36,507 nucleotides of DNA, taken from the NCBI GenBank assembly GCA_024639785.1, contig JAHEGI010000010.1:1-36507 (forward strand). Direction: 5' to 3'. Position numbers and translations under genes: made by a program. Source of the DNA: Cryomorphaceae bacterium. Its GTDB lineage: Bacteria; Bacteroidota; Bacteroidia; Flavobacteriales; Schleiferiaceae. Positions within the stretch are counted from its first letter, which is position 1; each line of letters opens with the position of its first letter. Under the pieces are notes generated by a model, which did not search any database, had not been told where the DNA came from, and worked only from the letters and a program-made list of their open reading frames with translations. Shown here one piece after another: positions 696 through 6,149 of the stretch.

Positions 696-702
696 CACTT
701 GC

Positions 703-1084
703 GTACAGCCGGCCTTGTCGCCTTGATTTTCAAGGAGGAAAGTCCGGACAACACAGAGCACCGCGCTTCTTAACAGGAAGGCAGTTGACCCGCAAGGGGA
801 GGCTGACAGCTAGTGCCACAGAGAGGGAAACCGCCACGAGGCATCGATCGAGCACCGTGGTAAGGGTGAAAAGGTGGGGTAAGAGCCCACCAGCAGTTTG
901 GGCAACCGAGCTGGCTAGGTAAACCTCGCGGGTTGAAATGCCATGTAAACCGATGCTTGAGAGCGGCTCGCTCAATGTCGGAGGGTAGGCAGATGGAGCA
1001 AGTGGGTGACTGCTTGCCTAGATCAATGACAAGGACGTGCTTCGGCGCGGACAGAATCCGGCTTATACGGCTGTACGTTTTTTT
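703..1084 (+). ncRNA. rnpB: RNase P RNA, bacterial class A
   Basis: This is the catalytic RNA that removes 5' leaders from pre-tRNAs. The universal core is plainly present: GAGGAAAGTCC at 735-745, the GGTAAGGGTGAAA segment near 858, the GGGTAAGAGCCCACC segment near 878, and ACAGAATCCGGCTTA at 1051-1065. The terminal helix P1 forms between 703-711 and 1068-1076 (9 bp). A T tract at 1078-1084 follows and serves as terminator. Open reading frames across this segment on both strands are spurious. Confidence 0.96.
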
Positions 1085-3899: not shown

Positions 3900-3975
3900 C
3901 GGGATGTAGCTCAGGTGGTAGAGTACACGTCTGGGGGGCGTGTGGTCGCACGTTCGAATCGTGTCATCCCGACCA
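3900..3975 (+). tRNA. tRNA-Pro (anticodon GGG)
   Basis: The acceptor stem CGGGATG/CATCCCG (3900-3906 with 3965-3971) is perfect. The D arm, the anticodon arm with loop CTGGGGG (anticodon 3933-3935), and the T arm with loop TTCGAAT all fold. Discriminator A is at 3972 and CCA (3973-3975) is encoded. The CGGGATG start is typical of bacterial tRNA-Pro. Confidence 0.95.
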
Positions 3976-4014: not shown

Positions 4015-4303
4015 ATTGTTAATAGGCTTGCAGTAAGGCATTTGGCTATTTCGAGGCGGGTATATTGACCTTGAGTTTTTGATTCAAAGGACCTGGTTTA
4101 GCATGGTTTTCAAAGGGTTTTTTTCGCTGCTTTTTTGAGGGCTCGATAGAAAATGATTGATTTCCAACCGCGAGGAGTGATCGTCTGCCCATGGGCTCAA
4201 GATGCTCGTTGTTTAAACATTTACTTTATTCGATAATTAAATAATTGAAAATGAGCATTATAGATCAAAAATAGAATTTGTGAACATAGTTTTTAACAAG
4301 CCC
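4015..4303. other. Intergenic, AT-rich, no feature recognised
   Basis: No open reading frame with a plausible start and no RNA fold was recognised between the tRNA terminator and the promoter of the structured RNA. The composition becomes markedly AT-rich from about 4200. Confidence 0.5.
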
Positions 4304-4333
4304 TTGATTTATTCTATTCTATAAGTACTTTCA
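4304..4333 (+). promoter_or_regulatory. Promoter of the large structured RNA
   Basis: TTG at 4304-4306 is separated by exactly 19 bases from TACTTTCA at 4326-4333. This is a -33/-7 pair of Bacteroidota type with one mismatch in the -7 box (TTTC for TTTG). It lies in AT-rich DNA and predicts a start near 4339-4341, where the structured purine-rich sequence begins. Confidence 0.55.
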
Positions 4334-4339
4334 TAAAGC

Positions 4340-4996
4340 GCAACAGCAGAACGGCAACGGCCACTGTTGGTCCGAGGGTGCGAAAGGGCCCGAGGATGTG
4401 TCTCAAAACCAGCAGACTAACTAGAGGTTAATGTACCAAAAGATCGCGAGCTGAACGAAAGTTAGACCTAGAAATAGGAATGTTTTGAGGGCTGAATGGA
4501 AGAGTCTCTGACTTGGCAACAGGAAAGAGAGGACGTAAGGGAGACCGCAAGGCGACCCCAGGACTTCGAAAGAAGGCCTGCTGAGAGCCCCGCAAGGGAG
4601 AATCAGAAGTAAAACCAGACAGCAAGTCCGAAGCGAAGCGAAAGTGAGGCTGAGGACAACCAAGTGTGGATTTCGGTCTATACTTGCCTGCAAAGGAAGC
4701 CTTAGCGACCGCAAGGAAGCCGAGGGGACCCCTGGATCGCCAGGCTAGCTGTGAACAACGGTTAGAGCGCAGAGCCACGAGGCAACTCGATTTTGGGATA
4801 GAAATCGGCTTCCTGAACCACCGCGGACAGGAGGTATGCCACGAGGCAAAAACCGGCTGAAACGGACGATGAAAGAGGCGTCACGAGTACAGAGTTAAAT
4901 CTGGAAATTTCGGCGGGAGACCATCCCACGGGATGTCATACGCCAGGCAACTGGAGCGTGAAAGGGCGATGTCTACGGATGTCGCCCTTGTCTTTT
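4340..4996 (+). ncRNA. Candidate large structured non-coding RNA, unassigned
   Basis: This stretch of about 650 bases has no plausible gene on either strand, yet the plus strand is purine-rich and full of short hairpins. Those closed by GNRA loops include 4467-4478 (GAAA), 4512-4523 (GCAA), 4564-4575 (GAAA), 4589-4598 (GCAA), 4778-4789 (GCAA) and 4943-4954 (GCAA). Other stems are 4341-4346/4364-4369, 4731-4735/4740-4744, 4811-4815/4828-4832, 4837-4840/4845-4848, 4865-4868/4879-4882 and 4912-4915/4941-4944. An 8-bp helix, 4402-4409 with 4482-4489, encloses a subdomain. A promoter precedes it and a terminator hairpin ends it. No group II domain V or group I core was recognised. Identity is unknown. 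Large RNAs such as GOLLD or ROOL, also often near tRNAs, are possible comparators but no sequence match is claimed. Confidence 0.65.
4962..4996 (+). terminator. Terminator of the structured RNA
   Basis: An 8-bp stem (4962-4969 with 4982-4989) with a 12-nt loop is followed by GTCTTTT. It ends the RNA just before the tail of the convergent oxidoreductase gene at 5010. Confidence 0.65.
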
Positions 4997-5009
4997 GCTC
5001 AAAATTGGT

Positions 5010-6149
5010 TTATTCGAGTAGGTCGGCCATTTGCTGTCCTAGAACGGGGGCTAGGGCGACCCCCATGCCGCCCATGCGCGCAGCGACATAGCACTGGTCA
5101 TTTTCTGCATGTACATAGGGCATTTTGCTGCCATTCGAAGAAAAAGCCATGATGCCGGCCCATCGCTCTTCGATATCGAAAGAGGAAGAAGGCAGCAAGA
5201 CTTCTCGGGCGTAGCGTTCGAGATAATCCTGGACTTCATTGCTTATCCTGGCTTGATGGCTTTGCTCTGCTTGACGGAAAGCATTTCGGCCACCGCCCAA
5301 AAGCAGTCGATCCCCAATGTTTCTAAAATAGAGATACCCTGCATCCGCATGGTAGGTGCCTCGAAATGGGAGGCCTGGAATCGGGGAGGTAAGCAAGACC
5401 TGACCTCGCCCGGGAAGTACATCTAGGTGGGGTAGAAGTTCCGAGGCCCAGGCATTAGCCGCTACCACGACTTGACGAGCTTCAATTTCTCCATGCACGC
5501 TGGGTATTTTCCAAGTTTCGCCAATTCGTACCCATTCGGTTTTGGGAGGGACGTGTAGACCCTGGCACCACTGAGCGCCGAGCGAATGCACTTTGGCGCT
5601 GAGGGCCTGATGGGCTTTACCTGGATGAAGTCCTGCTTCATGCAAGATCTGAATGGTATATGGGAGCTTCGGGCCGATAGAGGAAGCGATTTGATAGACT
5701 CTTCCTGGAATCTCAGCCGCATGAGCGAGGGAATTCAAGTGATCTAAAGATGCCAAAACCGCCTGGTAGCTTTCTTTTTCCTGGTCTGAAAATACCTCAT
5801 GTCCATGCTCCGGAGTCCAATCTATCGCCCGCGCATCAAAATGCGCCAACCAAGCTTGCAACCCTTGATATCTCCAGGAAAGGCGCTGTATGATTTCCGC
5901 TTCGCTTTCATGTTGTAAGTCATCCAACAGCTCGGTTGGGCTTCCAAAGCATGCGAAACCGGCATTTCGGGTGCTTGCTCCAGCCTGGCCATGTGGAAGC
6001 TGGTCGACCAACAGGACTTTTTTCCCGGGAGATTGCCGCAAATAATGGTAGGCAGTCCAAAGTCCAACCATGCCCGAACCGATGATCAAAACGTCAAAGG
6101 AGCCGAGGGTTCGATGACTTTCCCAGTGAGAAGGGCTGAACTTGAACAT
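5010..6149 (-). CDS. FAD-dependent oxidoreductase, DAO family
   Basis: This 379-residue flavoprotein belongs to the D-amino-acid oxidase/glycine oxidase superfamily. The dinucleotide-binding motif is GSGMVG (24-29). The following ASTRNAGFACFG segment is typical of DAO proteins. The C-terminal RMGGMGVALAPVLG segment forms the second FAD contact. Relatives oxidise secondary or primary amines, releasing imine and reducing FAD; the actual substrate cannot be read from sequence. It is monocistronic and convergent with the structured RNA. Upstream, TATTTTG is a near match to a -7 box but one base short. The family is firm and the substrate unknown. Confidence 0.88.
   Translation of the reverse strand: MFKFSPSHWESHRTLGSFDVLIIGSGMVGLWTAYHYLRQSPGKKVLLVDQLPHGQAGASTRNAGFACFGSPTELLDDLQHESEAEIIQRLSWRYQGLQAWLAHFDARAIDWTPEHGHEVFSDQEKESYQAVLASLDHLNSLAHAAEIPGRVYQIASSIGPKLPYTIQILHEAGLHPGKAHQALSAKVHSLGAQWCQGLHVPPKTEWVRIGETWKIPSVHGEIEARQVVVAANAWASELLPHLDVLPGRGQVLLTSPIPGLPFRGTYHADAGYLYFRNIGDRLLLGGGRNAFRQAEQSHQARISNEVQDYLERYAREVLLPSSSFDIEERWAGIMAFSSNGSKMPYVHAENDQCYVAARMGGMGVALAPVLGQQMADLLE

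Follow-up and report, generated by a model that had tools for sequence, protein, structure and literature searches.

A conserved, putatively transcribed large structured RNA that fits no known family, encoded at a single chromosomal locus in a genus of Flavobacteriales

Only a few classes of bacterial RNA that are both very large and of unknown function have been described. Three large RNAs examined by cryo-EM all formed homo-oligomeric complexes, and in the same work the profiles of ROOL, GOLLD and OLE were taken from Rfam (PMC12286853). ROOL, of which a 659-nt example was studied there (PMC12286853), has an elaborate covarying fold, is often near tRNA genes and is carried by phages or prophages near tRNA islands. 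Many GOLLD RNAs exceed 800 nt; in the marine example env-38 the RNA follows a tRNA. OLE is a dimer-forming RNA with protein partners (PMC12286853). A further structured bacterial RNA, the raiA motif or ModT, has a trans role in growth transitions and is found in Bacillota and Actinomycetota (PMC11706538). No description of the RNA considered here was found in the open-licence PubMed Central literature searched.

This RNA occupies about 659 nt (4338..4996, + strand) of a 36,507-nt stretch of Cryomorphaceae bacterium DNA (contig JAHEGI010000010.1; the whole stretch analysed is termed the window). NCBI taxonomy places the Cryomorphaceae within the Flavobacteriales. Sequence comparison shows one homologous RNA, with conserved promoter and terminator sequences and a fold kept by compensatory change, at one chromosomal locus in one genus. 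Its homologues, about 570-830 nt long, are present in 21 of the 22 genomes of the genus and fall into three diverged groups: A (the window type), B (shorter and GNRA-poor) and C (A+T-rich). The reading favoured here, at a probability of roughly 0.62, is that 4338-4996 is a stand-alone gene of a new lineage-restricted family of large structured non-coding RNA, which would act in trans as a scaffold, ribonucleoprotein or RNA-only particle; both its expression and its function are inferred. A preliminary description, made without database searches, had already proposed a large ornate RNA of no recognised family, and the fold, the covariation and the absence of any Rfam match support that proposal.

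A similar length, an elaborate covarying fold and proximity to a tRNA gene are shared with ROOL. However, the new RNA has no Rfam match and no phage homologue that could be found, was found in one genus only and lacks a constant tRNA neighbour; the ROOL trait of phage or prophage carriage near tRNA islands is not seen, a single tRNA gene lying beside it, and that in groups A and B only. GOLLD is likewise large, and the position of env-38 behind a tRNA is comparable, but the new RNA is shorter (570-830 nt), chromosomal and vertically inherited, with no phage link found and again no Rfam match. OLE shares the quality of being a large structured bacterial RNA and differs in that its Rfam model does not match. 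With the raiA motif the likeness is that of a structured bacterial RNA, though ModT belongs to other phyla. The preliminary description had compared the stretch with large ornate RNAs such as GOLLD and ROOL; that likeness is one of style, with neither homology to them nor a phage context nor a constant link to a tRNA having come to light. The new RNA is of the loose kind 'large ornate bacterial RNA', and is a member of none of the families tested.

A cmscan search with 4227 Rfam families at gathering scores gave no match in the RNA stretch; its recovery of RNase P and two tRNAs from the window shows that the method works. Relaxed to E values up to 10, it returned for the window only matches far below gathering scores, and at E up to 5 no match lay inside the RNA of seven related loci (two of group A, three of B and two of C). 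Membership of a known Rfam family is rejected on these grounds; a significant match, which the preliminary description had named as the result that would make the RNA a known one, was not obtained. No Rfam covariance-model match to ROOL, GOLLD or OLE was found in the RNA, nor any Rfam 15 match for the raiA motif or ModT (the presence of a raiA model in that release is unverified). The reported absence of group I, group II and tmRNA features is upheld as well. Rfam holds intron models, and neither group I nor group II introns matched in the RNA. ARAGORN finds no tmRNA in the window, the genome's tmRNA being at C6:89-483, and RNase P is rejected likewise, the genome's own (class A model) being at window 702-1081. 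That the RNA might be a diverged version of a known housekeeping RNA (tmRNA, RNase P, 6S or SRP) could be entertained from its single copy in this genome and its retention across the genus. With tmRNA and RNase P encoded elsewhere in the genome, and no Rfam match in the RNA, this is very improbable, although 6S and SRP RNAs were not searched genome-wide.

In the window the RNA has tRNA-Pro(GGG) (tRNA at 3900-3975, + strand) on its left and a convergent gene for an FAD-dependent oxidase (5010-6149, − strand) on its right; between the terminator of the former and the 3′ end of the latter are approximately 1000 bases without a conserved open reading frame. On neither strand of the window RNA does a frame of 30 codons or more (counting the stop) stay in register and free of internal stops in all five other complete group A sequences, and a 116-aa antisense frame has no Pfam or NCBIfam match. 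A protein-coding reading of either strand is rejected on this evidence, and the description of the stretch as gene-free held. So did the promoter with exact 19-nt spacing that had been read there (4303..4333, + strand), with CTTG at 4303-4306 followed, after the spacer, by TACTTTCA at 4326-4333. The consensus for Bacteroidota promoters is TTTG-N19-TAnnTTTG. Groups A, B and C all retain the −7 box and the bases that follow it, and the start of transcription is inferred to be near 4338. The last base of TACTTTCA differs from the G of the consensus; that final G, missing here, is seen in this genome in the putative promoters of tmRNA, RNase P and tRNA-Pro. Upstream, at 4290..4298 (+ strand), is the 9-mer TTTTTAACA (consensus about TTWTNAACA), a possible activator site whose function is inferred. 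A 9-mer of this type is at −35/−36 from the −7 box in 15 of 17 sequences from groups A, B and C; the count is restricted to sequences with a correctly located −7 box (the rows of G007 and G005 were left out), and its chance level was not computed. The conserved 9-mer, together with a −7 box without its final G, suggests, but does not show, that the promoter may be regulated and activator-dependent. [A similar 9-mer is often present 12 bp further upstream, and the 9-mer of G002 and G019 is TTATTCACA, which fits the DnaA-box consensus.]

The terminal hairpin with T tract noted in the preliminary description also held. At 4962..4996 (+ strand) a 12-bp stem (4962-4973/4978-4989) with a UACG loop is followed by GTCTTTT. 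Such a terminator hairpin is at the end of the RNA in all three groups; over 20 sequences all of its cells pair, and 7 of the 12 pairs change on both sides.

By blastn, the RNA is found in 7 of 100 related genomes (its own included), all of them in one genus and with the same neighbours as far as the contigs reach. Six of these group A copies are complete; the seventh, in G021, is cut and shows only as 53 matching bases (E 4.5e-4) where a contig ends, next to the oxidase gene. Group B, of about 570 nt, came to light when this slot was read in other genomes of the genus; seven have it behind tRNA-Pro, and an eighth copy (G001) is cut by a contig end. A group B copy with 100% identity to that of G019 is also in Cryomorphaceae bacterium UBA9924 (DMDX01000169.1). 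A covariance model (R1) for which only the 3′ domain of group B was used scores the window RNA at 44.9 bits (E 1.4e-11) and recovers the remaining five complete group A sequences with E values of 2e-10 to 3e-17. A model of A and B together (R2) finds group C at 2e-11 to 1e-14 in six genomes that had formerly seemed to be without the RNA. The exception in the genus, G008, gave no R2 match and is also without the TrxB and oxidase genes of the RNA locus.

The gene order around group A is TrxB (−), tRNA-Pro (+), the RNA (+), oxidase (−), NrtR-like (+) and peptide transporter (−). Each group C copy likewise has this convergent oxidase gene next to it and, G018 apart and as far as the contig extends, the NrtR-like gene; other genes lie between tRNA-Pro and the RNA, the gap being 10.8 kb in G010 and 5.4 kb in G018, the two in which it was measured. 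A constant linkage to tRNA-Pro is rejected given these distances, so that 'beside tRNA-Pro' is true in the window and not a property of the RNA. In none of the eight group B genomes did the oxidase gene have a match; there the RNA is followed by a co-directional NrtR-like gene in G001 (the cut copy) and five of the seven complete loci, and by a convergent transporter in G005 and G007. The sharing of neighbours across the groups implies that the RNA has been inherited vertically at one locus, and that adjacency to tRNA-Pro is not essential. [In five group B loci (L049, L050, L051, L052 and L053) a palindrome, GTGTA-N6-TACAC, is between the RNA terminator and the NrtR-like gene; read by eye, it is likely to be an operator.]

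The group B arrangement invites the alternative that the RNA is a cis-acting leader, a riboswitch or attenuator of the neighbouring gene. In its favour are the co-directional NrtR-like regulator just described and the pairing of the U-tract with an upstream sequence, on account of which two structures of the terminator region are conceivable. Against it, the gene that follows is convergent both in groups A and C (the FAD oxidase), where this rules out a leader, and in G005 and G007 (the transporter); the terminator hairpin ends the RNA in all groups; and usual leaders are far shorter than 570-830 nt. A leader is considered very unlikely.

Folding favours one strand. As a plus-strand RNA, 4330-4996 has a predicted energy of −243.6 kcal/mol, with z of −6.69 against 20 shuffles; for the minus strand, also with 20 shuffles, z is −0.82. 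The better-than-shuffled folding of the stretch is, therefore, specific to the plus strand. Within the minimum-energy fold of 4320-5004, GNRA loops cap 11 of 24 hairpins on the plus strand and none of 15 on the minus, with a mean of 0.27 and a maximum of 2 in 30 shuffles of that interval. Purines make up 61.6% of the RNA, and the purine maximum among all 659-nt stretches of the window starts at 4321. The earlier observations of a purine-rich plus strand and of GNRA loops on that strand only are both borne out for the window sequence of the RNA. In the 10 of 19 sequences taken into the comparison, four of group A have 7-11 GNRA loops each, three of group C have 4-9, and three of group B have 0, 1 and 2. 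In the sequences tested, GNRA richness is a trait of groups A and C and is not universal.

That this is a conserved structured RNA is shown by compensatory changes well above three kinds of control. For group A (six sequences aligned with MAFFT as A2, with a structure from RNAalifold) both partners change while pairing is maintained in 76 of 188 pairs, against 32.7 (sd 4.3) in shuffled alignments and 13-19 when the structure is slid. For group B (seven sequences, alignment A3) the count is 84 of 174, against 43.0 (sd 4.1) shuffled and 12-23 slid; the cut copies in G001 and G021 were left out of A2 and A3. Over the 3′ domain, in an alignment of 20 sequences of A, B and C fitted to R2 (A7), 54 of 70 pairs are compensatory (shuffled 39.1, sd 2.5; slid 16-26), with a covariation score of 0.614 compared with at most 0.113 in slid structures. 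Because the A and B structures come from the very alignments on which the pairs were counted, they have an advantage in the slid control. Random re-pairing of the stem columns, a control that keeps the phylogenetic pattern of every column, gives z values of 17.3 (A7), 19.5 (A3) and 22.7 (A2). The all-pairs covariation test was not passed. Proposed in the preliminary description as an R-scape analysis, and carried out as an R-scape-like imitation with a phylogenetic null, it yielded one significant pair in A7 and none in A2 or A3, though with 6-20 sequences its power is low to almost absent.

Three domains can be distinguished. In the 5′ domain (4338..4401, + strand) a helix, P1 (4338-4341/4398-4401), closes two branches with loops AACG and an invariant GAAA. 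The 12 pairs of P2, P2b and P3b form in 131 of 132 cells across the 11 sequences of groups A and C counted, and 8 of these pairs change on both sides (the count was scripted on hand-anchored positions, with G018 left out). The central domain (4402..4761, + strand), which has GNRA-rich hairpins and is supported in group A by covariation, is the most divergent part among the three groups; it is rebuilt in C and B, and no reliable alignment between groups could be made. An 8-bp helix, 4402-4409/4482-4489, had been predicted there; it is present in the window sequence and is moderately supported by group A, over which 80.9% of its cells pair. Three of its eight pairs change on both sides, and four depart only by unpaired cells.

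The 3′ domain (4778..4992, + strand) is the part recognised by the covariance models. Near its beginning is a conserved hairpin (4788..4807, + strand) common to all groups, with the loop region UUGRRAHARA; 5 of its 7 pairs change on both sides over 20 sequences, and loop positions G, A and A are invariant in all 20. At the other end a three-hairpin unit (4914..4997, + strand) finishes in the terminator and is closed by a helix between the U-tract and a run of purines upstream. Three pairs of this closing helix (4914-4921/4990-4997) are common to all groups and form in 20 of 20 sequences, two of them changing on both sides. In the domain as a whole, 19 of 198 columns are invariant over the 20 sequences, 5 of them unpaired.

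These figures bear on the possibility that the RNA is a ribozyme, i.e. a large catalytic RNA, conceivably a remnant or relative of an intron or of an RNase P type RNA. Its size, its GNRA-capped helices and the strongly conserved unpaired stretches in groups A and C would be in keeping with this. On the other side are the absence of an Rfam match, introns and ribozymes included, in a search that finds RNase P and tRNAs, and the scarcity of invariant columns in the 3′ domain combined with a central domain that differs between groups, which is unlike a catalytic core. A ribozyme is thus regarded as unlikely.

Searches of genomes, phages, plasmids and viral contigs outside the genus gave no convincing homologue. 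With R1, none of 66 genomes from other genera of the family had a match at E 0.1 or better, a weak negative as the strict filters missed all of group C and some of group A. With R2, weak matches (E 5.6e-4 to 0.32) turned up at nine places, spread over six of 33 genomes from other genera of the family; seven of these are terminator-like hairpins just behind, at the end of or inside open frames, and the other two are opposite-strand readings of two of those seven. In 36 genomes from other families of the order R2 had no match at E 0.1, the positive controls (G000, G003 and G009) being recovered, and in 40 genomes of the class (its own included) it had two weak places (E 0.005-0.006), again hairpins behind or inside open frames. 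A loose pattern applied to 395 genomes of the order was met in 11 of 19 from the genus and 2 of 376 others (its reversed control in 6 genomes), and the two from outside the genus have no R2 match at E up to 1. Four sequence profiles found nothing better than E 0.2 in the NrtR neighbourhoods of 9 other-genus genomes. The proposed search of Bacteroidota genomes has, then, delivered homologues with covarying stems, in one genus only. The true range may nevertheless be larger, since only some of the first-look candidates of the genome search are scored, the models cover the 3′ domain and not the 5′ or central domains, and metagenomes lay outside the search.

One further alternative is that the RNA is a domesticated mobile element, prophage-borne in the style of ROOL or GOLLD. 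The large ornate form and the tRNA gene that lies ahead of the RNA in groups A and B speak for it, as does the occupation of the slot by a protein gene in another genus of the family. In the genome concerned (G032) no RNA was found in the tRNA-Pro/NrtR slot, which instead has a 552-aa open frame with a T9SS sorting domain (L206:609-2264), from which it follows that the slot varies between genera. The counter-evidence is that the neighbours are the same in three diverged groups, that the copy is single in this genome, and that there is no phage, plasmid or viral-contig homologue: blastn with one A, one B and one C sequence had no match in 50,697 phage records or in 72,556 plasmids, three specific patterns had 0 matches in viral contigs, and none of the 114 viral-contig stretches found with the loose pattern matches R2 at E up to 1. 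Mobile origin is very unlikely.

Under the favoured reading, that of a stand-alone trans-acting RNA, it would be transcribed independently, for which there is no transcript evidence, and its GNRA-capped branches, in groups A and C, are predicted to pack into a compact tertiary structure. It may serve as a scaffold in trans, either with proteins, as does OLE and perhaps raiA/ModT, or as an RNA-only particle in the manner of ROOL and GOLLD, and its role may be a housekeeping or growth-state one. Nothing in the data shows a partner protein, a multimer or a phenotype. The lack of a conserved self-complementary loop in group A or B means that a simple kissing-loop dimer is not suggested. Taken as a further, unrelated family of large bacterial RNA, the three diverged groups in one genus provide a ready comparative set for tests of structure and function, and they show how far helices and loops can be rebuilt (GNRA-rich A and C versus GNRA-poor B) while the neighbourhood, the 5′ start and the 3′ domain are kept. 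A bolder reading would see here the first example of a hitherto unknown class of large RNA machines in bacteria: a chromosomally encoded, GNRA-locked particle of about 660 nt with a defined three-dimensional shape (whether by itself, as a homo-oligomer, joined to proteins or acting as a catalyst), whose task in small-genome Flavobacteriales would be essential or tied to the growth state, the GNRA-poor group B being a re-engineered solution; the balance tips slightly against this.

Some features of individual loci may be added. A few kb upstream of the RNA in the window are the RNase P RNA gene (702-1081) and a gene for a DEAD-box helicase with a DbpA RNA-binding domain (1135-2940). In group B (L051:2745-3314) two invariant loops, in CCUUGCUUGG and (G/U)UCAGGCU, could pair with each other over about 6 bp, wobbles included; because both are invariant, covariation has nothing to test there. 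The G018 copy (L177:3753-4595), at about 830 nt, is some 200 nt longer than its group C relatives; 9 of its 24 predicted hairpin loops are GNRA, and the extra helices appear to have been inserted.
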